Assembly: GCA_003116975.1 (NCBI GenBank)
Contig: BGKB01000059.1
Coordinates: 186,001 to 250,000, forward strand
DNA: 64,000 nt
Direction of reading: 5' to 3'
Source of the DNA: Aurantiochytrium sp. KH105
Taxonomy: Eukaryota > Sar > Bigyra > Thraustochytrida > Thraustochytriidae
Position 1 is the first letter of the stretch. Each line of letters starts with the position of its first letter. The notes under the pieces were generated by a model. That model did no database searches, was not told the origin of the DNA, and saw only the letters and a program-made list of their open reading frames with translations. Below, in pieces: positions 6,203-37,608 of this stretch. Made by a program: the position numbers and the translations under genes.

Positions 6203-6236
6203 GCTGCGCGCGAGCAGCTCGCCTCGTTCTCGTTTT

Positions 6237-6350: not shown

Positions 6351-6365
6351 GGGCGCCCGCATCGG

Positions 6366-12041: not shown

Positions 12042-12258
12042 CCTCCTCCCCGCTCTCTCCCGCGCGCGCTCTCGCCGCCTCCGGCCTGCTCCGCCGCCTC
12101 TGCCTCTGCTGCAGCTGCACGTGCAGCGCGTGCAGCAGCAGCGCGTGCAGCAGCAGCGCGTACGTCTCCTACGCACAACCAGAGCAACACACAAGCAAGC
12201 GAAGCGCGCGCCCAGATCAGCCCAGCCAAGCACAGCCCGCTCAGCTCCCGCGTTGCCG

Positions 12259-15726: not shown

Positions 15727-18700
15727 TTACAGGCGTCGCAGATTGGAGCTACTGTCCACGCGCTGAATATCTCCCTCAGGATCAATGTATTCGCCAAAAG
15801 GGTCCTCATCATCCACATTGGCTGCACCTGATATGAGTTGAGTGAGGGAGAATGGCCGCGCGGGATGTTGTGCTGACGCGCGCGCCAGGCTCTGTCGTAG
15901 TTGTCGGCGCTGAAGCAGCAATGCATCCCCGGAATGCACATCCTCTAATCCTTGGCCACCCAGGCCACCGTCCACATCAAAGCCTCCCAACGGTGTCACC
16001 CGCCTCCGGGCGCTACCAGACAACGTCTCTGCAATCGTATCAAGCGGGAGCGGCCTGAACTGTCCGTCGTCCGGGGATGGCGTGAGGTCGTGCACGCCCA
16101 ACTGCGCAAAGTCAGTCTCTGGCGGCGGAGGAGGAGGCGGCGGCGGCGGTGGCGATGGAGGCAATGCGTCGTCTGCGTGCCCCGCAGCCGCATCTTCGAC
16201 GTCGTCGTACACGTCCTGGCCATAGCTGTCCTCCGCGGCATCGTCGTCGTCATCGTCATCGTCGATCTCGAAACCGAGTCGCATGCTCATACGACCCGTC
16301 GTGGTTTGGTCACCGTCAATCTCGGTGCATTGAACCGCGTACAAAAGCTTGCGGCGCATCACTTCCTTGCTCGAGTACGCAGGGAGGTCAATGGTAAAGT
16401 AACACGTGTGCGCATAGGGAAGCATGTCATCTGGACTCATTTCTGGGCGTCCGTACGCCGAGCGTGGCGGATGGAACGAAGAGACCTTGTGTGGCTGATC
16501 CCACGATTCACGGTCCAAGGGAAGCCGCGCGCGGCCCCAGACAAACTTGAGGTAATCGGAACGCTGCTCGTCAGAGAACTCGTCGAGCACAGTCCAGAAT
16601 GCCTGAATGTGAGCATCCGTTTCGGCACAGTCAGAATACACCGTCATGCGCTTGAGAAGCTCAATATCGATACGTGGGCGCCCGCACACCATAAGCTCGA
16701 GCTCTTCCCAGCGGAACAGCATGAGAAGCCGCTGCGGCACGATTGTCGCGAGGCCGCGCCGAATCGCCTCAACCTGAAGGTCGAATTCGTGCACCTTATA
16801 GTCTAGCACACGATGCGCCCAGTCAGCATAGTTCTCCGGCGTAACCTGTAACAACCGCCCATTCGGCACAAGCTCCACCTCACGGCCGTCGAGCGCAATG
16901 GCCGTGTAGTACATGGGCTGCTGCTCCAAAAAGGCACCAGGGTCAGGGCATCTAGGGTCCGTATTCGTTACAGTGAGAATGTCCACTGCGCGAAGGTCCT
17001 CGACAGACGGCACCTGATTCACAAGGGGTTTCCATACGAGACTGGGTAGCCGCAAATCGAGCAGCTCACGGTTACGAATCGCAATGCCCATGAGTTTGCC
17101 GAGAAACTCGAACATGGAGATCTGTACAGGTGAGATCGCTGCAGGATTTGGCAGCCAGCGATCTCGGTTGACGCGAATCTCGTTGGCTCGATTGGAGCAA
17201 GGCAGTAAGAGACCGACACCGGGAAGCGTCTGCAGCTCCTTGCAGTACTCCGAAAAGCTCTGGCGATATGGTCCGCCATCGTCATGACTTGCCATGCCGC
17301 GCATCACGCACTTGTACAGTTTGCCATGCGCGCGCAAGGTCTTTGCCGGCATTGGGTGAATCGCACGGAAAGCTTGAGCAAATACCGTATGCCGTCCATG
17401 CACGTCGGCAAGATGTCGCTTCGACATTGCCTTGCCAAAGTCCAGGACCACATCGAATTTATGAATATCCTCCGCCTTGGTTGACGAGACAGCGTCCAGC
17501 CAAAGAGGACCCTTGAACTTTTCAAAGAGAATGCCGCAGCATTCCGAAAGATAGGCTGCAGTGCTCGTTGCGTCTCGCCAGGCGCTCAAATCGAGCAGTC
17601 CCAACGCCTCGTGAACAGCCTTGTTCAACGATCGCACCAAATCAAAACGCTGTGCAATATCCAGTAAGATCGCGTGCAGGGCGCTGCGCTCCAGACGAAG
17701 ACCATCGCCAACATGAACCATTTCACCCGAGCCAGTATCAGACTCGGCCCCAGTCGCGCTTGCGCCGCTACGAAGGTCGCTCAGAACAGACGCGCGCTCG
17801 CGGACAAGCGCGATGAGCTCTGTAGAAACAGGCCGTTTCTTGGGCTCACCGCGCTTGGATTGCTTCTTCCGCTTCCCTCGCGAAGACGTCGCCACGGAAG
17901 GCGCCGCCAGCGTACTCGAAAGAGCTTGCTGTCGCAGAGAGGTTGCGCTTAGCGCTGCCCCTGTGTCCGTCAAGGAGAGACGTGCGCCGCGACGCAACAG
18001 AGGAGCCATAGGAATGGGCGGGGCGTCTTCGTATGCAGACTCGCCAGCTTCGAGGCTTGCTTCGAAACTCGCCGTTTCCGCAACTGAAGGCAGATCGTCG
18101 GCGTCACCGCCAGTGGACATGCTGGAGACCTCACGAATGTCGAGAGGAGCAATGGAATACAGTTCATCCCACGAAAATTCGAGCAGTTGAGCAAGATCCG
18201 TGTTCGAGTCTGCAACGGCGGTATTCACGTACGCGACCAGAGCTTCGTCTTGGCGGCGCGTCCAGCCTCGCTGACGCGCGAGATAGGCTTGGTATTGCTC
18301 ATCCATGGCGCCCTTGGCCAATGGGCCAGTCTCGTCGCCAGCACCTCCATCTACGCCCTCGGCGCCATCCGTCGATGCGTCCAAGTCCGCATTCGCTCCG
18401 TGAATGCTGCTTGGATCAAAAGCTGGTGTAACGCGTACCTTGTAGCCCCAATTGCTAATGGGTGAGAGCTGGACGTTCTCGCCAAGCTCAACTCGCTGGA
18501 TCGAGACACGCTGATAGTTGGTGCTTAGCGACACCGCAGGAATCACGCGCGACGGCAAACCGCAGATTGTGCCGAGCACACGACCATTTTGCAAAAATGT
18601 GACAGTGCTGTTTGGGGTGTCAAGACTGACCGTCACGATATCCCCGGCCTCGAGTTTCTGCCCGCGCGTTTCTCCACGCATGCGCACTCCGTTGGCAAAG

Positions 18701-21700
18701 AGTTCGCCCGTGCGCTTCAACGCCCAGGCTCCTGGCTTTGATAAAGGGGTGATGGCCTCGAGCTCGTTTCGATCGCCGCCAAAACCCTCCGGCGCGATCA
18801 CTCCAATCATAAGCTTCTTTCCCGAAATATCGTCGATACGAAAGCATACATTCATGCAGCCCGTCGTCTCATCCGTTTCGTAGTTGAGGCGCTGGGTCCC
18901 ACACTTGGAGCTTCGCGATACCCTTGCAATGGAACGATTGTTGTTGAACACCTCCACGCCGGCACCTGGAGTTTGTGGAGCAAATCCAATGCTTACCTCG
19001 TCCCCCTTGGCACCAAAGTGTACCTTGCTGCGATGCGAGCTCCCGTGCGATCTTGACGCTCGGTCGTCGAGTTCTCGGCGCGAAAGGCCCGATGGGCCCT
19101 CGCGACCTGAGATAGCACCTCGGCGCCTTGACGGAGGATGCAAGTTCAAACTGAGACACTCCCAGGGCAGCCAATATTGCGTACCAAGCTGCTCCCACAT
19201 GACTTGGCAGGGGAGATCATCGCCATCGTCAATACGAATCACCTCGCCTACATCACCCGCAGACACGCTTTCGTAGCGCTGTGAACACCGTACCTTGTCG
19301 TGGACACGGCAATTCCGGGACATGTAGCGCGCGTACTCGTTCGGGGACATGAAGTCACTCGACTCGAGAAAGGGAGCCTGTCCTGCCCTTGTGCCGCCAC
19401 GCGAGCTATTATCTCCAGTCGCAAAGAGTCCATCGATATCTTCTTCGTCCGAATCGTCGTCGTCCAGCATCTGCCCGCTCGCCCGGACAGCATCTGCATC
19501 TCCTGTTGAGGGGGCGAGATCGGGAGGCCAAAGCGAAGACGACAAACCAGCAAGAAGAGATGATGATTCTCGTGAAAGAGAGTTGCGCGACCTGCGAAGA
19601 CCGCCGCCACCTTGATAGGCTCCAACACGAGCTCCTGCATCCTCTCGACCGAGTGTTCGCAGGTCTTGGCCCCCGATCTCAAGCACAGACACAAGCTCCA
19701 AATGTTGCAGAGGAATGTCAAGGTCTTGTTTGAAAGATGCTTGTGAACGGCCTTGCGATCGAACAATGGCTCGTCCCGAGGCACGGACCACCTGGACCTC
19801 GACCAAAGACCCAGGTCGCACGCTCGGAGGAAGACCCGATGTATTGAGCGCAATACGCAACGGCATTCCAGGCACGATGACTCCACGGAGAAAATCGACA
19901 TAGGCCTCGTCCGAAGCAAAGCTTGCACGCTCTCGCCAAGGAATACTGGTGAGACGGTTTGTGCGCGACATCACAGCGAGGAACCGCCTGCAGTCTTCGC
20001 ACGGAACGGGCGGCTTTGAGCACTTGTCACAGTACAAAATGTCCTTGAGCCGGACACGACGTCCTTGCGCCTCGCGGGCAGGCCCGGCCAACATAGGAAG
20101 GCCCGCCATGTTGCGAGCGAAGAAAATGGCACAGTCCGGACACTGGCTGCCGCCGTCGGGCCCGCACATGCCGTGCGACGATGTCCAACCGACGATTTCT
20201 GACCATGACCTGCCGCAATAAAACTTGGCCCGAAAGTGCTTTCGCGTACCAAGCCATACGTACGCACCTGCGCGATTCCGCAAGGCTGCCACAGCCACAT
20301 CCTTGCGCACCGTGCTTCCTGCCGAGTCGACCGACGACAGCGATGTCGTGCTCGCACTGTGGCGATGAGTCCCTTGAGACATGAGTGATTTACCTTGAGT
20401 TTCAACCGAGATCGCAACAGTTGACCCGGAGATCACCGAGAGATTTGGAGGCATTCCATTCGCACCCCGGAATTCGCGACCATCCACGTGCACGACAATG
20501 GCTGCCTTTGTGTTGCCAGCATCCAGGCAGGATCGAGGATCCCAACGCAACATAAGCGCTGTCGCACCTGGAATTGTAAGACGCGAAGTTTGGCCAGAGC
20601 CCTCAGCGCCCGTTAGTTCTGCCCCCGAAACGGCAGCTGTTGCGGCTGCAAGCTTAGACAATGACGACGAGGATGCGGCCATTGTGGGAGGTTTACCCAT
20701 GCTGCTTTCTAGACGCTGCGACGAGGCCCTCGAGTCTGCGCCATCCATCGACGCCAAATCGTCTTCGCTGACGCGTGAGTGCGTCCGCTGCCGCGACAAC
20801 AGTCGTTTGCTTTGACTCGGGATGACTCCCGAATGCTGATTTGCTTTGTTCTGTCCAAAAGGCAGTCGAGGGGAGTGCACAAAGTTCGCAGCGTCGCGAA
20901 ATACTGGGTGAGTGCTCTCCAAACGATCGCCCTTGACGTGCTGACACCATCGCACAAACTGATCCTTGAGAAAGCGCTCTGGAGGAAGCATCTGACAAGC
21001 AAATGCCTTGAGCAGCTCTGTTGCGGTTACGAGTGAGTCCAGCCACTCTGCATTATCAAGCGATCCACTGCCGCTGACGATGGCAGAGGATTCGGCCGAC
21101 TGGCCCACAATACTTTCAATGCTTTCCCGCACACCGTGGTACGAGATACCTTTGCCAAGAAGTCGCTTCTGGCTCAGGGTGAAGTCTCCACGCCGTCTCC
21201 GAAAGGTCAGACAAATTTCGTTCATTGCCAAGATTGACTCCGACACACGCCCTCCCGGACTTCCAGGGCTTCCTCTTGCATCCAGACCTGTGCCCAAGGA
21301 CCTGCCAGCTCCGAATCCTTTCGTGGGAGAAATGCTCAAAGGATCAGCGTCGAGGGGCGGGAAGCGCACCCCGTTGTACATATAAGGCTTTGAAAAGACG
21401 GGGACTGTGGTGTCACCCAACTGCCCCTGGAGGGACGCATCGCCAAAGGGGTCTCCGCCCTGTACATTCCCATCAGCATCAACTGGGACGCCCAGAGGGC
21501 CAGACATTCCAATCGCCGTCAATTCACAGCGCGTGTTCGGATCGAGGGACGCCAAGAAGTGATCCTCCACAGCGATGAGCTCATCGCCGACGGCCACATC
21601 CTTTGACAGGACTTTGATATTCTCCTTTTCGGCCCCGTCAACTTCCTCCCCAGCCTCACTGGTCGTGGGCTGCGCGCGAATCGAGCTCACGCAGAGACGC

Positions 21701-24700
21701 CCATTGAAGAGCTCAAAAGAAAGAACGGGCGGAATCGATGCCCGCTGTGCTCTGATTTGCACCGTAAAATCCTCCCACGAAGCATCTTCCTTCAGTGCGC
21801 GCCGCGGTGAATCGATCAGCAGAGACTCTCCATCGAGCCCGTCCTTGCGAGACAGATCGTCCACGGAGACGAGACACTTCAGCAAACGCTGGAACCGGAT
21901 CCCAGCCACCGTTCCCTTCTCGTCGTGCTCGAGACGGAGAAGACCGTCTGCGCCTCTCGGGCCAGACACTACGCCGCCGTCATCCTCGTTGTTGGACACC
22001 GATGCGACAGCTTCCGTTGGACTCGCCGCGCCTGGTGTAAGAAGGCTTTCGGGCCCTTCGCCCCCTCGACCTCCTGGTCTTGGTGGCGTTAGTCCAAGTC
22101 CCAGCGTTGGGTCCGGGCTCTGACCAATAAAAGGAATGGATCCAGGCATGCCCGTGGCAGAATCTGGTGCGCCTCCGAGCTCTGCGCCAGCCATGCGACG
22201 GCGTCTGCTCGCGCTCGCCCGATAATTTGCGCTACCGACCAATAGCGAGCTCGAAGCGCGCGATGTTGCTGGCGTACTCGCCCCTCCCGCTGCAGTGGGA
22301 TCAGCACTGGCATCACCCGGCCAGGCCCGCGAAGATTCCACGCCGAATTGCCAAACAGATTCCGCACCCCGTGCGGGCCCTCGTGTCACTGCAGCCTCTG
22401 TGTTTCCACTATTCCGGGCTTGCGCTGTTGAAGGTTGAGCGGAGCTCATGGTTTCAGCATTGTCCCGCGAAGGAGTCACGCCCCCTGCAGCTTCAGTGCC
22501 CGCGCCCGAAGACGGTGCCATCGATGCCGACGTTGTGGTCCCCGCCGTTGCGTCGGCAGCGTTTGAGGACGTAAGAAGCGCTTTGGTTTTCACCAAGTCA
22601 CGAAGCCGGCGCTGGCGGGCCTCATTCATTTCATTCACCTTGGTCTCCAACACCGCTTGAAGCAGGACAAGCGCCTCCGCCTTGGTCCGGGGTAGAGACT
22701 GGTTGGCGAACCCGCCGCCAGTAGTTGCTGCGGCGCACGAGCACAGGAGCGAGACAACGTCGACAACGGGAAGCCAGGCCTCGTAGATGGGCGAAGTGAT
22801 CTCGTCGAGTTTGCCAGAATCGCCGTCAATGCAAAAGATACCGTAGTCACAGACGCGTCGAAGTGCACGAAGGAATGAAGGACTCCGCAAGACCTGCATT
22901 GCTGGCACAATGTTTTCCCGTAGCAGAACGGTCAGCAGCCAACATGCCTGACGCAGAGCCTCTTGCACACGCATACCGGATTCCGTTTTCATTGCAAAAA
23001 CGTCCTCCGCGCTCTGGCGCAAATACCTCGACCGCCCCTCACGCTCTGGCGCATCAACGACTTGCATAGTTGCGCACCACCCAGCACGACCGTGCCAGAG
23101 TCGGGTGCGGTGCGGCCCACTCTCAAATGGATCTGGAACGCTCTTGGGCATGAGGTAAAAGACCTCCACAGGCTTGAGAGCCCAACTTTCCTCGATTTTC
23201 TTCTTGCCTGGCGTGTATGCCACATTGAGCCGGCCGCGCCGATTAATGACGCCCAGGTACTGGCCTTGCGAGATAAAGACCTTGCCGTCGACAGGGACAG
23301 TCTGAATTTCTTGCGTGTTGGGGTCAAAGTGAATCGTCCCGCACGTCGGCTGACTGGCTGTCCCAGCTACAACGAAAAAGGTGCTCGTGTCACCTGCACG
23401 CTCAAACACCAGCACTTCCCAGGATCCCTTGCCACCAGCAGGCGGTTCGGCAAGGCGGAGCTTGATTGTACGGATGTAGCCGTCTGCGGTCGCCGGACTG
23501 TTGATGATACTCACCTGGGCAGAGTCTGCCTTGCCGCTTTGCGGAATATCTCCCCGGTATCGATCAGCGATGAGAATGTATTGACCCGGTTGTTCGTCGA
23601 GCATGTCGTCCGCCGCTGGGGTTGTTGACGCGTCTGGTACCTGACTTTCTTCCTGGTTCGGTCCTGCGTGTGAAGAATCCGCCCCTCCAGCTGGCGTCGC
23701 CGCACCTGAGCTACTTGATCCGGCAAGGTGTCGTACATATGAGCCTTCGAGCCGGCGGTCAAAATCCCCGTCGTCGTAGAGGATATCGAAATGTCCGCTA
23801 TCGTAGACCCGGGCAATTCGCCCCTGGTACCACCGTGCACCACGACGAAATCGTCCCTCAACGCGCTCGCCGAGCGCAAAGGCTGGTCCAGATGCGCGCC
23901 TCGATCCGTTGGTGTCCTCGGTAGTGGAGAGAGGCATGATTCGGTTCCGCGGCACCTGCGACTCTTTGTCTCCGTCATCATAGTGAATCTTGTACGTGCC
24001 GTCCGGCTGGATCGCGGCGATCACACCGGTGTACCAATTCGCTCCGCCTCTGAAACGAGCCTTGACAACATCCCCCACTTGCAGCACGGCATTGGTCGAC
24101 TGCGTTGATGACTGCACAGACCGGCCTCCTGAGCTCGAGGAGGTGGTACTGTCGCGACGACTCCTTGGCCCATCGCCGCCTTGCGCAGAACCACCTGCAG
24201 CAGCACGACGAGCTTCCCTCGCCTCGCGGACCTGCGCAAGTGCGGTGGCCGCGTCACGATCCTCGGCCTCGCGTGCAGCCTTTTCCTGTCTCATGCGCTC
24301 TCGATGAATCTGAGCACCGAGTGAGAGCTGATGACCGACTGCGACAAAGACGGTAATGCACGATTCCAAAAGAGATTCCTTCACGCGGGCTTCATCCGAG
24401 CCGGACGCCCATGATGCAATGGCGTCCACGGCGCGTCCCTCGTAAGATTCTCCTCCGCCGCTGCCGCTGCCGCCGCTGCCGCCACCTCCGCCGCTGCCGC
24501 CTCCGCCGCTGCCGCCAGCGTTGCCCGTGCCTCCGCCACTGCCATTGCCAAATCCGCCTCCGCCGCCGCTGCCAACGCTGCTTCGGAACGCTAGATTGAT
24601 CGTTCGCTGCAGCGCCGGGCCCTGCAAGAGATACTGTGGGATGGATCTATTCGTGCACAAGGTCCAATCAACGACCATTTTTTCGAGAGCGCGACGGCAG

Positions 24701-27700
24701 TACCGATCGTAAAGCGTCTCAAAGACTTCTCGACCAATGGCACCCAGCCAGCCCCCACTCGAAATGTACCGCGGGTCAGACAGAATTGCCATGGCAAGCA
24801 TCTGCACTTCACTGTCCCGTCTCGCAGAGTCCTGCGAGAGCGGCGACGGCTGACTCGCATCCTCTGCGGCCGACGAGTCCATGACCTCGTAAAGTACATT
24901 GATCTTTTGAATCATTTGCTGGCTCGCACTGAGGCCTGAGGACTGAAGGCCAGCAGAGCTTGCAAGCGCATCTCGCGTCGAGCTCGAGCGTTCACGCTCG
25001 GTCGACTCGCCAATGTCGTCGCCATCCTCAAAGCCTTCAGCACGATCCATACTGAGCATTCGCTCTGCGTCAAAGCTCGAGACGTCCAAAACCTCTTCGG
25101 CCTCACCCACAGATTCCGTCATCCGCTCGGTCCAGGATGAACCGGGTGAACGAATTCCAGATGCCGGAGAAGCGGCCGAAAACGACTGCACCTTGGAGAC
25201 GCCCTCGAATAAGAGCTCTGCAATGCGTGCAGCTCTTACCTCGAGGTTTGCATCCGTGCCGTGTCTGAAAATATGACGCTGAGGCACAGCAGCTCCGCGT
25301 TTTGCCGGACCCGAAGCCGTTGTGCACATGTGCTGCATCGTCATCTTCACATCCGCGCGGTTTCCATACGCCGCAACACAAGGATAAACGCCCCACGTCG
25401 CGCGCTTGTCAATACCGTAAAAGACGCGTGTCAGCGGCTTGTCATTGACAGCGACACTGAGGGTTCCCATATCCATGTCAAGGAAAAACTTGATGACGTC
25501 GCCAGGGTGCACTCTTGTTTCTTGTGCGCCCTCCCACTGCACGCTCGCGCCCTCGTGGATGCGATGACCGTTGTAGGCTTGCAAAAGCCAAAAGTCCGTC
25601 GATGGCTTGAGCAAGTTTTCTACGGCGGATCCTGTGTCGCGTTGGCCAAACTCTGATCCAAGATGCGCCAGCGTGGTAATGCCAAACATCGCCGTCTCGT
25701 CATCCTTGACGTCCTCGTCGAGCACGACTTCCCAGGAATGTTTTCCCGTGACCATGGGACTCATGCCCACGGCGACGGCCCGATGTTGCTTTCCTGCAGC
25801 CGCAAACGTGATGCTGGCCGACCCTTGCACGTTCTCCGATTCCTCGGGAAAGAGACGCAGTCGCTGGGCAATCACGTCACTTAACGCCCACCGCACAGGC
25901 TCGCGCGACATCTCTTGCACGTGCGTTCGTGCTCGCGTTTCCTGAAGCAGTTGCTCCATCAGAGCGTCGCCGAGATGTTCCACGAGCGCCTGATTGTCGA
26001 GCAAGATAGAAACGGCCTTGGCAGCGCGAGCACGGACGTCGGCGTGAACCAAGTTGAGGGGCGCACTTGCCAAAATACGCTTCAAGGCATGGACCAGATC
26101 CCCGTGAAGCGCACTGAGCAAGGTTGTCGGCGGGCAAAGTGGAATTGGCTCGAGGTTTCCGAGCTTCTCCGCGTGAATGAGCGTGGCATCGTCATTCGGC
26201 GAGCTCGATGAGAATGCTCCCGTCGGGACGCGCATCCCACCGCTTGCGCTCGCCGTCCCGTCGCCAGATTGCGACACCGATCCGTGATCATCCTGCGACG
26301 ATGCAGCTTTGGCCTCCGCCACCGTCGCCACCTCCTCAGAGCTGTTGAGCGAGTCGCTGCCGTAGATGGGGCGCACATGGAACTGCTGGTCGAGGGTGTC
26401 AAGGGTAGGGCTACTTTCGGTGACGTGGTGACGAGCGAGAACTCGCAACTGCTGGATGCGAGAATCGCATCCGCCAGCGTGATTCGAGGTAATCTCGAGT
26501 CGGAAGACACGATCAGACTTTCGCACGTCACTTTCGTGAACAAGGTCGACCCAGCGTGTGGCTTGCTGGAGTTTGAGGACACGAATGGTACGAAGGCTTT
26601 CGGGTGTTGGCCCAAGGCGGATCTCAATCTTTTCGGGCGAGTAATTCTCGAAAGCATCGTTGGTGAAGATGCTAATCGTGTGAAGCATAAATCCACTCGG
26701 GCAAACCATTTGCACCCAATGCGGCGTGTACCCGTCGCTTTCCCAATAGTTGGGCGAGGCATCGAGAAGATATTGAGCATGACCCACCGAACCTGTCGGA
26801 TGACCCGTTGAGACTTGGATCTTCATACGCGCGGTAATGTCGAGGGGACGCTGAGTACGGCGTCGCGTTTTGGGCTTGCGTCGCGTTTGCGCTCCCGACG
26901 CGTTTGCGTTTGACTGTGGAACTTTGCCCAAAACGACAACTTCGTTCCTTGACATGAGACCATTCGATGACGCCGCCACGGCGCGTCCTCCCGTGCGCGG
27001 GCTCTCAAAGACGCCGCCAAGCACCGCAAGCGCGCCCATGGCTTCCACAAGCTCTGCGCTGTGTGCGCACGATGGGTGATCTGCATAGCGGTCAAGCGCT
27101 CCTGTAATCCAGGTTGCCACGGTCTGCGCCCAGGCGTCCACAGAGCATAGCGAATGAATGAGTTCCACCAATTGCATGGCCATGGCCCGCGCTTCAAAGC
27201 CTGTCCGCTGCAAACCACTACGCCCGCCTGCCACATGCAAGGCCTCGCCAATCTTTCGCATGATGAGCGACACGAGCACGTTACCTTCGGGACCTTCGCG
27301 GCCCAACCTCCAGTTTCCGAACTCCTTGGCGAGAGGCAAAGCGTACTTGCTTGCCGCCATTGGCGGAACTTCCACGAGCAAGGCCGCGAGCACCCGACCC
27401 GAGGCAATTTGGAGCGAGAGCGTCGATGTGTCTGTGATGCAGGCACGTAAAAGGAGCGTGACTGCATAAGGCGCCGTCAGCCTCGCGCGACCCACGGGGG
27501 AGGCGCATGCAGCATATGCCAGCGAAAGCACCTCGAGAGCGCGCACTGTAACCTGCTCGTTTAGGGTAATGTCCAGAAGAGGCTCCTTACGGCCATCAAT
27601 GAATTGAAGTGCTGCAATGAGATCTGCAAAATTTTGACCCTGGCCGGTCACCGAGTCTTCCGCAGCATCGGCGTCGGCGTCGTCGTGGTCGGCATCAGCG

Positions 27701-30700
27701 ACTTGATCCACATCCTCCCAGTCAACAAGTAGCGACAGCGGGAAAGAGAGAACTAGGCCACCCTCAGCTGCTGTTGGCAAGTGCGCATCGGCCATGCTAA
27801 TTTTAGTAGTTGACGTTGGTTCGATCTTCCGTGAGCTCGACGGGATATCGACCGCAGCGTTTGCAAACGCAAGATTGCTCACAACGACGCCGCGAGCAAC
27901 ATGGCGACGGGAGCCCATACCCCAGTCAGGGCAGCCACCAATGTACAGCGGGGCCTGCATTGCCAACGCGTGCCGCGTATTAATCCGAACGGAAGCCTTC
28001 GATCCAGACCCCTTCCTGAGCAACGCCATGCCTTGCTGAATTTCTTCATCGCTGAGCCCGAGCCCTGGAAGAATTCGCGCCGCGAGCTTTTCCGTTTCCG
28101 AGTTGGACTTATCCACGCCGCTCGCGAGAATGACGTGCTGCGCGCTTGCAGAGAGTCCTCGATGGAGGCTGCGAGAATCATAAGGCACTTGAAGAAGGGC
28201 GGAGATAGTCACCGCCATTGGGAAAAAGGAAAGCTGCAAGTCCGGATCTTCGTCCGCATCCGCGTCCGCATCTGCGTCCTGATGGAGGCGACGAAGGTTG
28301 ACACAAACGCAAGCCACCTGATACTTTGCACCAAGAACGAAGCCAACGTGGCCAGCAAAAGGTCCTCGCAAGATTCGGACATAATCCCCAGTGCTGAGGT
28401 CCGGAACGAGCAGCTTCTCATGACGCAGGTCTGCTGGAAGCTTACCGACCTCGCTTAAGACATCATCGAAAACTTCGACCGTGTAAATGCACTCTTGCTC
28501 ATTGCCTTGGTCCCGGGCGATAGCTCCCTTGGCATCTGTGCTCACGAGATGCAGTTCGAGGGAATTGTGGTCTCGGATGATGATGCCGACCTCGCACTCA
28601 ACGTCGTCAGGAAGAGCGAAATCAGAGACGAGGCAAAGATTGACGCCGGACAAATCTCCAATCGAGACAGTCAAACGTTGCTCTGCATCCATACCCACCT
28701 CAAGATGACTGAATCGCGCCATGTCATCTCCAGAAGATCCTGCCGATGGTGGACCGGCAATATAGTGCGATGTAGAAACTCCGATTGCGTCAACTTCCAC
28801 TTGGGGGTTTCCGAGGGAGAAAATTCGTCCAGGCTGAAAGTCTCCAGCTCGAGGTTTGGAGACGCATACCTGAAAACGAATGGAGCTTTCTCGAGCCTCG
28901 AGCGATACGTGATCAGCAATGAAGCTAAATTCTTCCGTTCCAAGTACATAGGCGAGGTTTGCCGGGTTCTCCGCACAACTGTGCTCCCCTGATGCCTTTT
29001 CGTCGACTTCGATCTCGTCTTGAAGTTCCCTCTTGTTGTTGGGCAAGCCGGTTTCCACTCGAGAGCAGCCAACGCCAAGCGAGGTATTGGCCATTGAAGA
29101 TTCGAGAAGAGCCACGAGGACATCAAGCAAAGACTGTTGCAGACTACTTCCCGAAGTGAAACGAGTGCTCTCCTCGGCTTCCTGCCCGGTCTCGCACACG
29201 CAGCGGCGCAAGAGTAGCTCAAAACATTTGCCAGCAATGGAGCGTACAAGCTCAGCATCATAATTGCTTTTGAAGTCATGAAAGAGAACTGCCCGCAGGC
29301 CTGCCACAACATCGCTCTCGGCAACGAGATCAAAGTCAGCTTCAACATAGTCGAGTGATATGACGTGGAGGTATTGCTGAATCTGGCCAAGAATTTGCGT
29401 CAAAAGCGCCTGCAGGTTGCGTCTGTGCCAGGGGGTCAGCTCGACATCATTCTCTACCTTGCGTTCTCCCCGCAGCGCCTGTGCAACCGATGTCTGCTGC
29501 CGCAGACCGAGGTGCAAAAGAGCACCAACAGATCGCAGAAATGCGAGAAAGCTGCGGGCGACACCTTCGCGCAAGCCCAGACTGCACCCAGGCAAGTCGG
29601 TCATGAAATGAGACTCGGACGGCCCCCCAGGCGTGGTGGCAACGAGCGCCATGTCCGATGGAAACGCTTGCATGTCCTGAGGACTGGTACCAAACCTGAC
29701 ATTCCCGTCTTGCGCATGAGCTGCATTCTTTTCCTCGGCCGCGGACTTGTCTGCCGCCGCGAAAGCAGCGGACGTTGCGGTTGACTTGGCCTCGCGAAGT
29801 GACAAGTTTGGCGATGCCATGAGAAGAGCCGCTTCCGTCGCAATGACGGCAACGTCTTCCTTTTTGTCAGAACGGGCAGCAGCAAGAATTCTGCGTCCCG
29901 AATCCAAATCAAGATGGTGCGAGATACCCATTCCACGAAGTGCGCGAGCTGTCGAAGAAAGCACAGTGTCAAACAGACGGCGCCCTTCCCGATGTCGCAA
30001 CTCGGTGCGCGCAAGCGCTGTAAGGTTATTGATAAAGTCAAAACCTGCAGTCCGCATGAGAGCTCGCTCGTTGCGGCTCGCCAGCACAACGCGTAGGGTT
30101 TCGCCATCGATGGGAACCGCTGCCTGAAGAAACATGTTCACAGACTCGGAAAGAGACTGGTCATGTTCTTGTGCGAGAATGTCGACGTCGCCATCAGCTT
30201 CAATGATAGAACCACGACGAATACCGCCGCTCAGTCGCTCTCGGCGTCGTGCAGGGGCATGAAAGTTAAAGTGACCCGATTTGGCGGATGTTGTCGATGT
30301 CGAGCTCGACGCCGAACGCGCAGACAACAGGTGCGGCGGCGTATTCATGGGACTTTCCGCGCCAGCAAAGTGGTTCGAGCCGGCACGATTTAGTCTCAAT
30401 GGAGGGATGCGCCCAAAACCATCGCCATCTGGTGCTGGTGGTGCGTCCAACGTGTCTCGGCTGAGAGACCGATCGCGGCTAAAAGTACGATCGCGGCTAC
30501 CCACGCGATCGCGGCCGAGATCCGACTCTTGCGACCCAGGCCGCGTAAGGGTCGAGCTTCGCGTTCTCGTTAGCGGGATAGCCATTTTCTGCGCCGCGGA
30601 ACGGTGCTGATCCACGAAAGAACGCAGCGAGGAAAGGGCGCGCAATGCCCCAAGAAGCACATCCCAGCGCTTTTGGTCTTGCAGCATGCGCTGGGTCTTG

Positions 30701-33700
30701 GGGCAGTAGTGGCGTCGCAGACGATGCCAACGGGCGCGTGCAGCATCTCGTTTCGCCGACCGCTGCGAAAAGACGCGAGACGTGGGAGGAGCCACATCGA
30801 CGATGAGGAATCGTGCTCTTTCCGCGACAATTTCACAAATCGATTCGTACAGAGGCTCTTCCGGATCCTCTTGTTCTCCGGCCCGAGCAATTTTTTCGAG
30901 CAATCTGGCACGAAGGGGCGAGCCTTCGGGCAAGCTTGCCTCCACATGATGCTGCACCTGACCGTTCACCACGAGCTGATCTGCCCAGCGACGAATGTAC
31001 TGCGCCGCGCTCCAGACCTTGAGCAGACGGGCAGAAGGTAAGTCACCCGTGCCTTGTGGGGGTGCACTAAGCTTGCCCTTGGCAAGGCGCAGGGCTTCTC
31101 GCTCCAGGCCGTTAACGCGAATCAGGGCCGCCCCGAGCGCTGCAGCTGCGCGATGAGTGAAGAAACCCTGATCCAAAGGAACACGCTGGCTTCGTAGGCA
31201 CTGGAAGAGCGCACCTCCCAAGTTGGGAGGCGGAAATTCGGGAGCTATCATCTCCAAAAGCATTGAAGTGGCACGCGTGCGGTCATCGTCGCTCATAGAG
31301 TAGAGACGAAGGCGTGAATTTGACTGCGTGCGCCCACGAGGACGCAAAGAAGGTTTTGTCGTCGTGCCCGCAGGGCCCGAGAGCGTTGGGCCTTGTGCGT
31401 TTGACCGGCCGTTGGCCCCGCGACGTTTCCACAACTCCGTCCCGGGGTTTGTATCATTCTCCCTCGTCACTGAGGACGCTTCACTGGGCGCGCTGGCTTG
31501 CTTAGACTCGATCTGTTTGCTTGGTAGGCTCTTGTTTGTGTCGGCTGTAGATTTACGAGGTGCCATGGGCGGCAAATCGGACTTGCGCGCGGACGGGCTC
31601 GAGTGGACGCTGCTGACCCCGACAGCTGCGAGACTTGCCGCATTTGCTGTTGTGGCAGTATTGTTCAATGCCGTGGTTGCATCTGCTAGGCCGCCACTCA
31701 AGATCGGATTTTGCACCCATCGCAGATTATGCATTTCCACGGCGCTGAGAAGCGCGTTGCTACCTACCATGGTATTAATGATTGCCGAAACAAGGTCGCG
31801 AGCCATTCCAGCGAGATGATCGATCCAGGGACGCACCACCACAGTGCGAACCTCTGATATCCGAGCAACAACACGAAATTTGTAAGCCCAATGCATCTCA
31901 CTGCCTTCAGTGAAAGTCACCACACAGCGACTTGCGGGAATGTGAAGAGGAGGATGGCCATAGATACCAGGGTACGATGCTGGATCGGAAAGCGAGCAAG
32001 AGCCGCTGTAGCGCTCCTCGCCAAAGCGCATCGATGCTGGGCACTCTTCGAGTCCGGTTCCCTGGAAGGCATCCTTGGCTTCGCCCCCGTCTGGGATGCG
32101 GAGGAAGCGTATGTAATGAACACCTTCGTACATATTGGTCCGCTCATCAAAGTAAATATACAAGGAATCCGCGCCGGGAACGTTGATTTCCCAGCGACGC
32201 TCAAATGAGTCTCTTGCTCCTGCTCCTCCTCCTTCCGAATCGTACTCTAGCGTTTTGGTGTAAGTTTTGGACCAGGCATAGGTCCACGGTTTCTGACTTG
32301 CCATGGAAGTTTGCTGCGCCGCGATGGCGGCGGCTGTGACAATTGTGCTTCCTCGTCGCTGCATTTCGGCCCGAAGATTGCGCTTTTTGTTAACAACAGC
32401 GGCAGCAGCACTCGATGAGGTGTGCATGGTACTCAACGTGGTCGCTCCTTCAGAGGCTAGCACAGAAGAAAACTGTACAACAAGACCAACAAACGCGGTT
32501 AACGACCCGAGTAGGTGATCTGCGCTGAGTAATGCCGATGCTGTGGCTGTTCGAGTAAAGTTAGACCGGCAAAGAAATTCAAGCCAGCCACAAACCACGG
32601 GAAATACACGTCCGACGAGGCTATGCTGCACAAGTTTGTCGAGCAAAGCAAAACGAGTGGTGACGTCTGCGTCAAAGTTGGTTGATTTGGCCGCGTGTAG
32701 GTGTGCAGCAGCTTCGCATGAGGCAGACAAGATCGCAGAGCACTTTTCCAATACGACCGAAAAGATGTCGACGATTTGTACTAAACTCGAAGGCATGACC
32801 GCCGTTGATGCGTCACAAAGTCCACTACTGAGGATTGATACCAACAGACCACAGCCCGCATCGCAGAGATGCCCAAGAGGATCATTTTCGAGGGCTTTTG
32901 GCCACGGCCCACTTCGTGCAGTGACAGCGCGAAGCGCATCCAGACGATCAAACGAGACCTTTTCAACAACAGTGAGGATGCGAGGAAGAACACTGGCAGC
33001 CTCCCCGAGCTGCTTTTCAAAGGGCAGCAGCATCAAGTTTGCGGTCAACGACTGCACGACAATGCACAAGGCGCGTGAAAGCGCTGGCTTTCCACGAAGC
33101 GCGGCGACGTTGATGTTTGCGAGCTCGTGCTGAACGAAAGATGCTTGCGCGGTGTTGCCTGGAAGAACGAGCTTGAGGGTATGGGCTAGCGTATCTGCGG
33201 CGAGCTCCTGGACCTCGCTCATCCCCTTGAACGATGGATCTGCTTGGACGAGGGCAAGGATCACCTTCAATAAGGCCTCGCACATACCCGTGTCGATGGC
33301 TTCACCCGCATGACCGCGCGCAGCCCAGCTGGTCGTCGAAATAATGCGCAGACATGCTCGCACCCCAGCGCGGCTCACTGCGCCCTTGTCATCGTCCGTG
33401 TTGAAGTCAATCATGAAGGTCTGCAACATCTCAATGAGCTGAGGAAAAGCCTTGCCTTCCAGCGCGATGGAGAAGGCCTCGGTAGCGCTCGGGACCAGCT
33501 CTTTGACGAGGCTATCTTCCGCCGAGACAAGGTCTTGATCACGATTGGCTTTCTTGCAGTCGTCCATGACTGCCTCGAGAATACTCTTGTTCTGTGCGCG
33601 GACTGCAAAGGGTGCGCCAAGACGAGCGATGCCTGATAGAGCCTGCACGCACATTTCGCGGCGCGAAAGGCGATCCTTTACGGGACTTACTTGCCATGCA

Positions 33701-36700: not shown

Positions 36701-37608
36701 ATCTCCATGATGGCCATAAAGGTGAAAGCGCTCGAGGGCATTGCCTTTTCACGACTTAGAGTGACCTTGCTTGATGCCATGTGCGAACCGGGCGAGACGC
36801 TTGGCTGCAGGCTCGCAATGAGCTCGTCGAGGCGGTCCTCACTTTCAGTCAGGTCCACCAGGTTCTCCGCAAAAGCAGCATCGCTTTCGCACTCTGCGGA
36901 ATATTCGCTGCGCACGAGATACATGGCAACTTCGCGCTTCGACCGTCCGTGCAAAGATGCTTCTTCCGAGGTCGGGTTTAAAGAGGACGGGGAAGCGAAT
37001 GTGGGCGAGGAGGAGGCGTAAGCCGTTTTCAGAACTGTAAGCGAGGCCTGCATTGCATTTGTAAGGATAAGTCTCGCCACATTGGCCGGACTCGGTCGAG
37101 CATGGTCGGAGAGTCTGAGCTCGGGAATTTCGTTCACGATGGTGTTGTGCGAGTTCAAGCCCGCCTCGTCGGCCAAGAGGACATCAGAGAGCGCAGCCTT
37201 GCGAGCCACATCGAGCGCATTGGTCTGGGAAGACTGTATCGAAGCTTCTTCCGTTGCCCCCGGGGGAACGTTGACGCCCTTGCGCGCACGGCCGTTCGGA
37301 TTGTTTTCCTTGTTTTCCGTTGGGTCTTCGGTCGCTGAGACAAAGGTTTGTCGTTCTCCATAACCCTGTGTTTGAAAATTGGCTTCGCAGGCGTGAGTTT
37401 TGCACGTGTGGCCTGCCCAGTCCTCTGGGTCCATTATGCCGAGCACTGCGTCGTCAAGATAGGGCGGAAGCGAGCCCTCTACAAGGCTTCGCATGAATTC
37501 TAGAGCGACTTCATTACTCGTCGTCGAGCTACTGCGTGCATTTTCTTGTAGCGCGTCTTCTTTGCGTAGGGGAACCGCAGTGTTCTTGGCGGCCTTTGTG
37601 GGCTCCAT
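15727..37608 (-). CDS. Giant HECT-type E3 ubiquitin-protein ligase (7,293 aa)
   Basis: One unbroken ORF of 21.9 kb. Domains read by eye: an MIB/KOW-like beta segment (about residues 533-595); SPRY 1 (about 787-973) and an acidic run (about 1000-1016); a CUB-like beta domain (about 1773-1927); a concanavalin/LamG-like segment (about 2890-3046) followed by a KOW-like one; an APC10/DOC-type domain (about 3594-3740); SPRY 2 (about 3913-4097); a Gly-rich linker (about 4345-4387); two Tudor-like repeats (about 4508-4623, YTGVIAAIQPDGTYKIHYDDGD type); a PDZ-like GDELIAVED motif; a Cys-rich, probably zinc-binding cluster (about 5793-5886); an MIB-like segment; SPRY 3 (about 6177-6373); and HECT (about 6740-7093). 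The catalytic Cys is residue 7069, in LPYAHTCYFTIDLPAYSS. HECT ligases take ubiquitin from an E2 onto this Cys and pass it to substrate. A tail of about 224 residues follows the Cys, with poly-Asp and poly-Pro runs; in most HECT proteins the chain ends about 35 residues after the Cys. The APC10/DOC, SPRY and MIB-like set recalls HERC and HECTD family giants, but I see no RCC1 repeats. The ORF extends 8 codons further only through a GTG; the first ATG is at 37608. Confidence 0.93.
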   Translation of the reverse strand: MEPTKAAKNTAVPLRKEDALQENARSSSTTSNEVALEFMRSLVEGSLPPYLDDAVLGIMDPEDWAGHTCKTHACEANFQTQGYGERQTFVSATEDPTENKENNPNGRARKGVNVPPGATEEASIQSSQTNALDVARKAALSDVLLADEAGLNSHNTIVNEIPELRLSDHARPSPANVARLILTNAMQASLTVLKTAYASSSPTFASPSSLNPTSEEASLHGRSKREVAMYLVRSEYSAECESDAAFAENLVDLTESEDRLDELIASLQPSVSPGSHMASSKVTLSREKAMPSSAFTFMAIMEMQMSTLEHAFSTATPEAAQSLIATTCSHLMELFAKMPLGILSDMAPWEHETFEALGETLCRLGERVDLDDAQSASSSRDAVDLFLLALSLQRGALDSVVATLRRIMFRSDDALESFDDVLNDMLRRLCAAVLYCPLDMADHRQAKAPAWLGDDTSSPRFTAHIRWKTFSSGTSADVEQRSTNKHVAADTQRSVRGYDGSASDDGGVPEDAFDNDIRPESKKCAEPDFFADHLAVGDLVRLSSSAESCEALRRGEVGRICFDDGSSKPFRVCGPRGDVGIWFAPHSLVRVSDSADVNIPHTAAGDSSVSGSADPFPAKHAQNAAAYTAPQRRRGAPMKGSFADSISVSHDGRFLYICGDSVGGIARVGAGCAGLGSSAAVAGHVYAHQPLDWSGMAQDIQVKGAQLGMVTELADNRLLVLLRRRGSAWVEAQQLDATTLTPWATPSPSALRFRLTDVKEVIHEQVVGVRGAEHLRTRAVTSENAADMVRLEVSKQDGPLSAAASWVGCGSSWVAGRGCWYFEATIQRAGSISIGWATPAYFNDQADDTLGAAWTMQVSRATVTDEHGASRSWGQTCKEGDVIGCVLDSTDSAAEGKVRIMFSKNGSWLFPFGTAFVIDGPILFARPLIVLERGVYETDAPIVKGSDPSEPCVDVCFGSLKENEEEAPLGRGRLRFRPPTETNWQPVAWSAGASLLDLRLGDDEDDEDEEEEDDDDEEEGNCNTSIYEEVDDAQHNQVPRFDGETSAAAAETRQCAYSPKTKKKNASRQTAEQKNDAKEDTRFRSPDRATPGGSVSSAVTWPQRAGGLPPLTSDGRLIYCVERAAPLLPLKCNTPRSSRQKTSVIIRAFDPAKGMALVKLWRVNVPAETVDFPNVNHLASWRIFTNGDDLVAVDASANASTAASATSDPGRQTRCGIFPLALLPSLGEKESAGDPASHFWLRKGWPGPNMAKSRALQSQVSKTAAHRDGYYFSRVHGVVWVWEAAINTCQAFSIDGLPSFDRLAWQVSPVKDRLSRREMCVQALSGIARLGAPFAVRAQNKSILEAVMDDCKKANRDQDLVSAEDSLVKELVPSATEAFSIALEGKAFPQLIEMLQTFMIDFNTDDDKGAVSRAGVRACLRIISTTSWAARGHAGEAIDTGMCEALLKVILALVQADPSFKGMSEVQELAADTLAHTLKLVLPGNTAQASFVQHELANINVAALRGKPALSRALCIVVQSLTANLMLLPFEKQLGEAASVLPRILTVVEKVSFDRLDALRAVTARSGPWPKALENDPLGHLCDAGCGLLVSILSSGLCDASTAVMPSSLVQIVDIFSVVLEKCSAILSASCEAAAHLHAAKSTNFDADVTTRFALLDKLVQHSLVGRVFPVVCGWLEFLCRSNFTRTATASALLSADHLLGSLTAFVGLVVQFSSVLASEGATTLSTMHTSSSAAAAVVNKKRNLRAEMQRRGSTIVTAAAIAAQQTSMASQKPWTYAWSKTYTKTLEYDSEGGGAGARDSFERRWEINVPGADSLYIYFDERTNMYEGVHYIRFLRIPDGGEAKDAFQGTGLEECPASMRFGEERYSGSCSLSDPASYPGIYGHPPLHIPASRCVVTFTEGSEMHWAYKFRVVARISEVRTVVVRPWIDHLAGMARDLVSAIINTMVGSNALLSAVEMHNLRWVQNPILSGGLADATTALNNTATTANAASLAAVGVSSVHSSPSARKSDLPPMAPRKSTADTNKSLPSKQIESKQASAPSEASSVTRENDTNPGTELWKRRGANGRSNAQGPTLSGPAGTTTKPSLRPRGRTQSNSRLRLYSMSDDDRTRATSMLLEMIAPEFPPPNLGGALFQCLRSQRVPLDQGFFTHRAAAALGAALIRVNGLEREALRLAKGKLSAPPQGTGDLPSARLLKVWSAAQYIRRWADQLVVNGQVQHHVEASLPEGSPLRARLLEKIARAGEQEDPEEPLYESICEIVAERARFLIVDVAPPTSRVFSQRSAKRDAARARWHRLRRHYCPKTQRMLQDQKRWDVLLGALRALSSLRSFVDQHRSAAQKMAIPLTRTRSSTLTRPGSQESDLGRDRVGSRDRTFSRDRSLSRDTLDAPPAPDGDGFGRIPPLRLNRAGSNHFAGAESPMNTPPHLLSARSASSSTSTTSAKSGHFNFHAPARRRERLSGGIRRGSIIEADGDVDILAQEHDQSLSESVNMFLQAAVPIDGETLRVVLASRNERALMRTAGFDFINNLTALARTELRHREGRRLFDTVLSSTARALRGMGISHHLDLDSGRRILAAARSDKKEDVAVIATEAALLMASPNLSLREAKSTATSAAFAAADKSAAEEKNAAHAQDGNVRFGTSPQDMQAFPSDMALVATTPGGPSESHFMTDLPGCSLGLREGVARSFLAFLRSVGALLHLGLRQQTSVAQALRGERKVENDVELTPWHRRNLQALLTQILGQIQQYLHVISLDYVEADFDLVAESDVVAGLRAVLFHDFKSNYDAELVRSIAGKCFELLLRRCVCETGQEAEESTRFTSGSSLQQSLLDVLVALLESSMANTSLGVGCSRVETGLPNNKRELQDEIEVDEKASGEHSCAENPANLAYVLGTEEFSFIADHVSLEARESSIRFQVCVSKPRAGDFQPGRIFSLGNPQVEVDAIGVSTSHYIAGPPSAGSSGDDMARFSHLEVGMDAEQRLTVSIGDLSGVNLCLVSDFALPDDVECEVGIIIRDHNSLELHLVSTDAKGAIARDQGNEQECIYTVEVFDDVLSEVGKLPADLRHEKLLVPDLSTGDYVRILRGPFAGHVGFVLGAKYQVACVCVNLRRLHQDADADADADEDPDLQLSFFPMAVTISALLQVPYDSRSLHRGLSASAQHVILASGVDKSNSETEKLAARILPGLGLSDEEIQQGMALLRKGSGSKASVRINTRHALAMQAPLYIGGCPDWGMGSRRHVARGVVVSNLAFANAAVDIPSSSRKIEPTSTTKISMADAHLPTAAEGGLVLSFPLSLLVDWEDVDQVADADHDDADADAAEDSVTGQGQNFADLIAALQFIDGRKEPLLDITLNEQVTVRALEVLSLAYAACASPVGRARLTAPYAVTLLLRACITDTSTLSLQIASGRVLAALLVEVPPMAASKYALPLAKEFGNWRLGREGPEGNVLVSLIMRKIGEALHVAGGRSGLQRTGFEARAMAMQLVELIHSLCSVDAWAQTVATWITGALDRYADHPSCAHSAELVEAMGALAVLGGVFESPRTGGRAVAASSNGLMSRNEVVVLGKVPQSNANASGAQTRRKPKTRRRTQRPLDITARMKIQVSTGHPTGSVGHAQYLLDASPNYWESDGYTPHWVQMVCPSGFMLHTISIFTNDAFENYSPEKIEIRLGPTPESLRTIRVLKLQQATRWVDLVHESDVRKSDRVFRLEITSNHAGGCDSRIQQLRVLARHHVTESSPTLDTLDQQFHVRPIYGSDSLNSSEEVATVAEAKAASSQDDHGSVSQSGDGTASASGGMRVPTGAFSSSSPNDDATLIHAEKLGNLEPIPLCPPTTLLSALHGDLVHALKRILASAPLNLVHADVRARAAKAVSILLDNQALVEHLGDALMEQLLQETRARTHVQEMSREPVRWALSDVIAQRLRLFPEESENVQGSASITFAAAGKQHRAVAVGMSPMVTGKHSWEVVLDEDVKDDETAMFGITTLAHLGSEFGQRDTGSAVENLLKPSTDFWLLQAYNGHRIHEGASVQWEGAQETRVHPGDVIKFFLDMDMGTLSVAVNDKPLTRVFYGIDKRATWGVYPCVAAYGNRADVKMTMQHMCTTASGPAKRGAAVPQRHIFRHGTDANLEVRAARIAELLFEGVSKVQSFSAASPASGIRSPGSSWTERMTESVGEAEEVLDVSSFDAERMLSMDRAEGFEDGDDIGESTERERSSSTRDALASSAGLQSSGLSASQQMIQKINVLYEVMDSSAAEDASQPSPLSQDSARRDSEVQMLAMAILSDPRYISSGGWLGAIGREVFETLYDRYCRRALEKMVVDWTLCTNRSIPQYLLQGPALQRTINLAFRSSVGSGGGGGFGNGSGGGTGNAGGSGGGGSGGGGGSGGSGSGGGESYEGRAVDAIASWASGSDEARVKESLLESCITVFVAVGHQLSLGAQIHRERMRQEKAAREAEDRDAATALAQVREAREARRAAAGGSAQGGDGPRSRRDSTTSSSSGGRSVQSSTQSTNAVLQVGDVVKARFRGGANWYTGVIAAIQPDGTYKIHYDDGDKESQVPRNRIMPLSTTEDTNGSRRASGPAFALGERVEGRFRRGARWYQGRIARVYDSGHFDILYDDGDFDRRLEGSYVRHLAGSSSSGAATPAGGADSSHAGPNQEESQVPDASTTPAADDMLDEQPGQYILIADRYRGDIPQSGKADSAQVSIINSPATADGYIRTIKLRLAEPPAGGKGSWEVLVFERAGDTSTFFVVAGTASQPTCGTIHFDPNTQEIQTVPVDGKVFISQGQYLGVINRRGRLNVAYTPGKKKIEESWALKPVEVFYLMPKSVPDPFESGPHRTRLWHGRAGWCATMQVVDAPEREGRSRYLRQSAEDVFAMKTESGMRVQEALRQACWLLTVLLRENIVPAMQVLRSPSFLRALRRVCDYGIFCIDGDSGKLDEITSPIYEAWLPVVDVVSLLCSCAAATTGGGFANQSLPRTKAEALVLLQAVLETKVNEMNEARQRRLRDLVKTKALLTSSNAADATAGTTTSASMAPSSGAGTEAAGGVTPSRDNAETMSSAQPSTAQARNSGNTEAAVTRGPARGAESVWQFGVESSRAWPGDASADPTAAGGASTPATSRASSSLLVGSANYRASASRRRRMAGAELGGAPDSATGMPGSIPFIGQSPDPTLGLGLTPPRPGGRGGEGPESLLTPGAASPTEAVASVSNNEDDGGVVSGPRGADGLLRLEHDEKGTVAGIRFQRLLKCLVSVDDLSRKDGLDGESLLIDSPRRALKEDASWEDFTVQIRAQRASIPPVLSFELFNGRLCVSSIRAQPTTSEAGEEVDGAEKENIKVLSKDVAVGDELIAVEDHFLASLDPNTRCELTAIGMSGPLGVPVDADGNVQGGDPFGDASLQGQLGDTTVPVFSKPYMYNGVRFPPLDADPLSISPTKGFGAGRSLGTGLDARGSPGSPGGRVSESILAMNEICLTFRRRRGDFTLSQKRLLGKGISYHGVRESIESIVGQSAESSAIVSGSGSLDNAEWLDSLVTATELLKAFACQMLPPERFLKDQFVRWCQHVKGDRLESTHPVFRDAANFVHSPRLPFGQNKANQHSGVIPSQSKRLLSRQRTHSRVSEDDLASMDGADSRASSQRLESSMGKPPTMAASSSSLSKLAAATAAVSGAELTGAEGSGQTSRLTIPGATALMLRWDPRSCLDAGNTKAAIVVHVDGREFRGANGMPPNLSVISGSTVAISVETQGKSLMSQGTHRHSASTTSLSSVDSAGSTVRKDVAVAALRNRAGAYVWLGTRKHFRAKFYCGRSWSEIVGWTSSHGMCGPDGGSQCPDCAIFFARNMAGLPMLAGPAREAQGRRVRLKDILYCDKCSKPPVPCEDCRRFLAVMSRTNRLTSIPWRERASFASDEAYVDFLRGVIVPGMPLRIALNTSGLPPSVRPGSLVEVQVVRASGRAIVRSQGRSQASFKQDLDIPLQHLELVSVLEIGGQDLRTLGREDAGARVGAYQGGGGLRRSRNSLSRESSSLLAGLSSSLWPPDLAPSTGDADAVRASGQMLDDDDSDEEDIDGLFATGDNSSRGGTRAGQAPFLESSDFMSPNEYARYMSRNCRVHDKVRCSQRYESVSAGDVGEVIRIDDGDDLPCQVMWEQLGTQYWLPWECLSLNLHPPSRRRGAISGREGPSGLSRRELDDRASRSHGSSHRSKVHFGAKGDEVSIGFAPQTPGAGVEVFNNNRSIARVSRSSKCGTQRLNYETDETTGCMNVCFRIDDISGKKLMIGVIAPEGFGGDRNELEAITPLSKPGAWALKRTGELFANGVRMRGETRGQKLEAGDIVTVSLDTPNSTVTFLQNGRVLGTICGLPSRVIPAVSLSTNYQRVSIQRVELGENVQLSPISNWGYKVRVTPAFDPSSIHGANADLDASTDGAEGVDGGAGDETGPLAKGAMDEQYQAYLARQRGWTRRQDEALVAYVNTAVADSNTDLAQLLEFSWDELYSIAPLDIREVSSMSTGGDADDLPSVAETASFEASLEAGESAYEDAPPIPMAPLLRRGARLSLTDTGAALSATSLRQQALSSTLAAPSVATSSRGKRKKQSKRGEPKKRPVSTELIALVRERASVLSDLRSGASATGAESDTGSGEMVHVGDGLRLERSALHAILLDIAQRFDLVRSLNKAVHEALGLLDLSAWRDATSTAAYLSECCGILFEKFKGPLWLDAVSSTKAEDIHKFDVVLDFGKAMSKRHLADVHGRHTVFAQAFRAIHPMPAKTLRAHGKLYKCVMRGMASHDDGGPYRQSFSEYCKELQTLPGVGLLLPCSNRANEIRVNRDRWLPNPAAISPVQISMFEFLGKLMGIAIRNRELLDLRLPSLVWKPLVNQVPSVEDLRAVDILTVTNTDPRCPDPGAFLEQQPMYYTAIALDGREVELVPNGRLLQVTPENYADWAHRVLDYKVHEFDLQVEAIRRGLATIVPQRLLMLFRWEELELMVCGRPRIDIELLKRMTVYSDCAETDAHIQAFWTVLDEFSDEQRSDYLKFVWGRARLPLDRESWDQPHKVSSFHPPRSAYGRPEMSPDDMLPYAHTCYFTIDLPAYSSKEVMRRKLLYAVQCTEIDGDQTTTGRMSMRLGFEIDDDDDDDDAAEDSYGQDVYDDVEDAAAGHADDALPPSPPPPPPPPPPPETDFAQLGVHDLTPSPDDGQFRPLPLDTIAETLSGSARRRVTPLGGFDVDGGLGGQGLEDVHSGDALLLQRRQLRQSLARASAQHPARPFSLTQLISGAANVDDEDPFGEYIDPEGDIQRVDSSSNLRRL
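24440..24580. repeat. Gly-rich codon repeat inside the HECT gene
   Basis: GCC/CGC-type trinucleotide repeats encode a Gly/Ser linker (GGGGSGGGGGSGGSGSGGG on the minus strand), about residues 4345-4387 of the ligase. The frame stays open. It marks a flexible linker between the SPRY 2 region and the Tudor-like repeats, and a likely site of length variation. Confidence 0.85.

Follow-up and report, generated by a model that had tools for sequence, protein, structure and literature searches.

Among HECT-type E3 ubiquitin ligases, HERC2 is very large, has its HECT domain near the C-terminus and carries a CPH domain ahead of a DOC domain, together with MIB, ZZ and cytochrome b5 domains. HECTD1 combines ankyrin, MIB and BTHB domains. 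HERC1 is not known to have a CPH domain or Tudor-like repeats. The Large HERCs each contain more than one RCC1-like domain, and SPRY is characteristic of HERC1 (PMC6692442). HECTD3 is far smaller (861 residues); besides DOC it is described with a helical domain and a beta-rich unit, and the word SPRY is absent from that paper (PMC13196369). Marin 2010 (PMC2837046) unites HECTD3, KIAA0614 and the Large HERCs in one group and finds DOC among HECT E3s only in HECTD3 and HERC1. Frames of extreme length are on record in Plasmodium, namely a predicted 22,500-bp HECT frame, HEUL, in Plasmodium yoelii (PMC5548792) and a 1 MDa PfHEUL (PMC12007708).

We analysed a window of 64,000 nt (G000:C59:186001-250000) of Aurantiochytrium KH105, whose genome assembly comprises 76.0 Mb in 367 contigs. 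The minus strand holds an uninterrupted frame at 15727-37608 that begins with ATG, reaches a stop only after 7,293 codons and predicts a protein of 785.5 kDa. Judged by sequence comparison, this diploid protist very probably encodes here, in a single frame, a very large E3 ubiquitin ligase of the HECT type that belongs to the HECTD3/Large-HERC group. Shown directly are the open frame, the selection seen between haplotypes, the domain content, the catalytic motif and how the HECT domain groups. The protein was searched against Pfam in three overlapping pieces covering its whole length. Its features are as follows (amino acids numbered from this ATG).

15727..37608, minus strand: predicted giant HECT E3, single open reading frame, 7,293 aa
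34861..35151, minus strand: SPRY domain 1, aa 820-916 (PF00622, 35.1 bits against a cut-off of 26.3; 41.1 bits in both haplotypes in the genome search)
31864..32211, minus strand: CUB-like segment, about aa 1800-1915, placed by eye, unconfirmed
28342..28389, minus strand: weak KOW-like motif, aa 3074-3089 (PF00467, E 0.0033, below cut-off)
26431..26871, minus strand: DOC/APC10 domain, aa 3580-3726 (PF03256, 61.1 bits; present in both haplotypes)
25348..25743, minus strand: SPRY domain 2, aa 3956-4087 (PF00622, 30.0 bits; 36.1 bits in both haplotypes in the genome search)
23962..24084, minus strand: Tudor-like repeat 1, aa 4509-4549 (PF18359 Tudor_5, the best of two stretches)
23725..23883, minus strand: Tudor-like repeat 2, about aa 4576-4628 (matched at 49% by Tudor_5 of HECT paralogue C102; weak 53-BP1_Tudor match)
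21139..21756, minus strand: PDZ-like segment, about aa 5285-5490, placed by eye, unconfirmed
19981..20169, minus strand: Cys-rich stretch with three CxxC pairs, aa 5814-5876 (from the sequence itself; no Pfam family)
19153..19359, minus strand: CPH (Cul7) domain, aa 6084-6152 (PF11515, 71.1 bits)
18514..18810, minus strand: SPRY domain 3, aa 6267-6365 (PF00622)
16324..17184, minus strand: HECT domain, aa 6809-7095 (PF00632, 197 bits against a cut-off of 23.9)
16402..16404, minus strand: predicted catalytic cysteine codon, Cys7069, motif HTCYFTIDLP (aligned with the SSTC motif of HECTD3)
15730..16290, minus strand: acidic and proline-rich tail of 187 residues, aa 7107-7293, downstream of the HECT domain

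A HECT domain above its curated cut-off and the predicted catalytic cysteine together identify a HECT-type E3. The first-pass annotation had proposed three SPRY domains, an APC10/DOC domain and two Tudor-like segments, and the profile searches recovered them all. PF00622 matched at three places, the third of which scored 24.0 bits in the protein search (cut-off 26.3) and 30.3 bits, above the cut-off, in both haplotypes in the genome search. The Tudor_5 score of 32.4 bits (cut-off 31) belongs to the whole protein, two stretches together, with the second stretch positioned by its match to paralogue C102 and not by the Pfam output. The Cys-rich stretch is possibly a metal-binding module.

Three further segments from the same annotation fared less well. 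An MIB domain found no Pfam match at E<=1 and a CPH domain is present instead; the MIB-like piece, given without coordinates, was probably the CPH/Cul7 domain. Neither the CUB-like nor the PDZ-like segment had a Pfam match. In phmmer searches against the HECT paralogues of the genome these two pieces gave nothing significant, with no match at E<=1 for the PDZ-like one, and their single-sequence AlphaFold models were unreliable (mean pLDDT 35.0 for the CUB-like and 29.7 for the PDZ-like piece).

Among solved structures, human HECTD3 (PDB 9r85; E 5.6e-43) matches the HECT domain best. Another search ranked HECTD3 (1.1e-41) ahead of HUWE1 (2.6e-30) and TOM1 (6.2e-28), so that by search scores the protein does not fall with TOM1, HUWE1 and PfHEUL. 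PyHEUL resembles it as a HECT ligase from a frame of similar scale (22.5 kb, predicted), but is described as a TOM1 homologue.

We also built a HECT tree of 26 rows, 22 from this genome and 4 human (HECTD3, E6AP, HACE1 and TRIP12). The giant HECT falls in a clade supported at 100/100 with HECTD3 and five other giants of the genome (C6, C14, C13, C77 and C28), and E6AP, HACE1 and TRIP12 lie outside it. The nearest paralogue is the RCC1-bearing C6, at a support of 92/93 that falls short of the star of the tree program. HECTD3, the one outside reference behind the name of the group, has a long branch and pairs only weakly with C14 (88/71). HERC1, HERC2, HECTD1, HECTD4, HUWE1 and TOM1 are not among the rows of the tree. 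On its HECT sequence we provisionally place the protein in the wider HECTD3/Large-HERC group, which the tree represents by HECTD3, with an architecture of its own. With this grouping the HECT domain is no orphan.

The assembly contains 44 HECT matches, mostly in near-identical pairs, as would be seen where both haplotypes of a diploid had been assembled. Besides the giant frame, HECT matches occur in frames open for 5,817, 5,152, 4,851, 4,921, 6,035, 3,205 and 3,486 codons (one haplotype each). Giant single-frame HECT genes are therefore usual in KH105, and neither the size nor the open frame is new. The emphasis first placed on exceptional size and absence of interruption was overstated, given these seven HECT frames of 3,205-6,035 aa and the 22,500-bp frame of Plasmodium yoelii (PMC5548792). 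The average of 4.7 exons per gene reported for KH105 (PMC5924542) speaks against a generally intron-poor lineage. Introns also seem to exist as judged by the APC10-like gene of the genome, whose two match stretches, 92 bases apart, each have an open frame of their own (34 and 177 codons).

The six giants of the HECTD3/Large-HERC group carry differing sets of modules. For example, a BTHB domain is found in C77 and ankyrin repeats in C28. C6, a single frame of 5,811 aa, has the closest HECT domain among the paralogues (38% over 478 aa) and shares SPRY with the giant HECT, but it bears RCC1 repeats, SH3 and UBA and shows no DOC, CPH or Tudor match at E<=0.01.

Some additional long frames were seen. 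In C102 (L048, G000:C102:198001-204000; 3,482 aa) the Pfam HECT match is split in two stretches, and by eye an insert resembling a Mind-bomb SH3-type repeat precedes the catalytic-cysteine motif. A giant open frame of 6,950 aa (G000:C6:258336-268475 and C15:560260-570408) was matched twice by SPRY and not by HECT. A phytoene-synthase domain lies in a 1,318-residue open frame present in two copies; a crtIBY fusion of 1,268 aa has been reported for Aurantiochytrium KH105, a diploid (PMC5924542).

How, then, does the architecture compare with the described ligases? HECTD3, the nearest solved HECT, has DOC upstream of HECT as here. Both domains are present in the giant frame, but instead of about 860 residues it has 7,293 and adds further modules. 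HECTD1 is distinguished by ankyrin, MIB and BTHB, none of which appeared in the Pfam search of the giant protein.

HERC2 is alike in its CPH and DOC, its very large size and a HECT domain near the C-terminus. In the giant frame, however, DOC comes before CPH, which is also the reverse of CUL7 by PDB chain positions, and RCC1, ZZ, MIB and cytochrome b5 had no match at E<=1 in a Pfam search of the whole protein. It has instead three SPRY domains, Tudor-like repeats and the 187-residue tail. HERC1 is alike in joining SPRY and HECT in a giant protein, but the giant frame lacks an RCC1-like domain and has CPH and Tudor-like repeats. As a Large HERC should contain at least two RCC1-like domains and no RCC1 family matched here (E<=1), we do not file the protein as a Large HERC.

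The first-pass annotation had called the arrangement unfamiliar. That holds against HECTD1, going by its domains as listed above, and against HERC1 and HERC2 (PMC6692442). The combination of CPH, DOC, three SPRY and Tudor-like repeats without RCC1 repeats, together with the conserved tail, seems unusual. Judged by title, none of the 4 papers returned by a literature search deals with thraustochytrid HECT ligases; the architecture may have been described earlier. Overall, the giant HECT frame looks like a real, conserved gene under selection, whose product is of a known enzyme class and combines its attached modules in an unusual way.

Against the PDB, DOC matched APC10 (E 1.9e-13) better than HERC2 (1.8e-6) or HECTD3 (7.4e-4), which counts against the placement in the HECTD3/Large-HERC group. 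One of these solved DOC structures is listed under HERC2, whereas Marin 2010 (PMC2837046) names HECTD3 and HERC1. The best match of CPH was HERC2 (9l8y, E 2.9e-13), followed by CUL7 and its relatives. In the genome search, PF11515 had 2 matches, the two haplotype copies of this gene, and DOC was found in this gene and in the APC10-like gene only. A search for relatives on viral contigs yielded 4 stretches that fitted a pattern, none of which was confirmed.

Two accounts of the origin of this module set were considered. The modules may have been shuffled independently as the lineage expanded its HECTD3/Large-HERC group, the likeness to HERC2 being convergence. We hold this to be close to an even prospect, though just short of one. 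Six giants of the group with differing module sets in one genome speak for it, as does the SPRY of S. rosetta HERC2, which has been called likely convergence (PMC6692442). Nonetheless, no other gene of the genome yielded CPH, so that a private gain is a less simple explanation.

Alternatively, the gene might descend from a HERC2-type ligase (CPH, DOC and HECT) that predates the split of animals and stramenopiles; the RCC1 propellers would then have disappeared and SPRY and Tudor-like modules been added. The proximity of CPH to that of HERC2, the match of DOC to HERC2, the confinement of PF11515 to this gene and of DOC to this and the APC10-like gene, and the RCC1 repeats of the sister paralogue C6 are consistent with such a descent. 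Against it stand the RCC1, ZZ, MIB and cytochrome b5 domains, which had no match at E<=1, the order of DOC and CPH, which is reversed in CUL7 and in HERC2, the greater proximity of DOC to APC10 and the mobility of SPRY and DOC as modules. We regard this descent as tentative and somewhat improbable.

Whatever its origin, the giant HECT protein most likely works as a ubiquitin ligase by way of a thioester, with many modules that bind substrates, where we infer catalysis and substrate binding from the domains. Ubiquitin would move from an E2 onto Cys7069, forming a thioester, and from there to lysine residues of the proteins held by the ligase. Recruiting and holding substrates or partners would fall to the DOC, SPRY, CPH and Tudor-like modules arrayed on a long scaffold, and the acidic and proline-rich tail may regulate the C-lobe or bind partners.

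HECT proteins need their catalytic site at the C-terminus for activity (PMC4327156), and 224 residues follow Cys7069, compared to 32-65 where measured in the other HECT loci of the genome. The 32-65 range comes from a motif scan that covered 28 of 30 HECT loci (2 had no match) and 6 of 9 joined or window frames, some loci and frames being the same genes; the scan missed the giant HECT gene, its C88 copy and C13, so that the 224 is a count made from Cys7069 outside the scan. Such an extension is unusual in the light of PMC4327156 and counts against reading the protein as an active ligase. The tail is conserved, with 185 of its 187 residues identical between haplotypes, and it tests the rule that a HECT cysteine must sit near the C-terminus.

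A bolder proposal is that the gene is an RCC1-free sister of HERC2, that a machine of CPH, DOC and HECT had arisen before animals and the unicellular lineages close to them, and that, as the strongly conserved tail would show, a working HECT C-lobe can tolerate, and is perhaps controlled by, a long C-terminal extension. HERC2 has been reported in choanoflagellates and animals (PMC6692442). We consider this proposal unlikely. The genome's single-frame HECT giants, eight at the least, of which six fall in the HECTD3/Large-HERC group and differ in their modules, provide material to date the group and to ask how the CPH and DOC modules of HERC2 came together. As genetic methods exist for thraustochytrids (review, PMC8467673), the giant HECT gene could be tagged or removed whole.

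Finally, we turn to the evidence that the ligase is encoded by one frame, as the first-pass annotation had claimed. About 261 stops would be expected by chance in a 21.9-kb frame of this base composition (log10 P about -115). On the other haplotype (G000:C88:201182-223057) the corresponding ATG opens the same frame, there 7,291 aa long, which bears the claim out. The two proteins are identical at 7,115 residues over 7,295 alignment columns, and the frames differ at 627 of 21,867 aligned bases (97.1% identity).

These differences fall at codon positions 1, 2 and 3 in the numbers 102, 73 and 452. The dN/dS is 0.123 overall and ranges from 0 to 0.33 per block (25 blocks of <=300 columns each along the frame), and all 4 gaps between the frames are multiples of three. 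The flanks differ from this: gap lengths are not divisible by three in 7 of 11 cases in the 1-kb 5′ flank (94.6% identical) and in 5 of 5 in the 3′ intergenic stretch (87.1% identical). The excess of third-position differences, the overall dN/dS and the gaps within the frame together form the signature of one continuous translated frame under purifying selection along its length. An illusion of the assembly, or a pair of genes merged into one reading, is highly improbable and was rejected: the same frame on C59 and C88 excludes an artefact of one contig, and two genes are at odds with a dN/dS not above 0.33 in any of the 25 blocks, with gaps that are all multiples of three and with the absence of an internal stop where a first gene could end.

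The window as a whole has no Rfam match. Outside the giant frame it contains several other long frames. On the plus strand (44042-50420), three adjacent frames resemble tandem duplicates in their similar starts and single membrane-spanning stretch; two of them were scanned and had no Pfam match above the cut-off. On the minus strand (51785-57553), three adjacent frames appear to be tandem copies for a secreted protein, sharing a signal-like start and an AYDSGSYFxGRC motif, and again the two scanned had no Pfam match. Also on the minus strand, within 1412-12233, a single-frame NACHT and WD40 protein of 1,805 aa (6819-12233) is adjoined by an LRR and MyTH4 protein of 1,766 aa (1412-6709).
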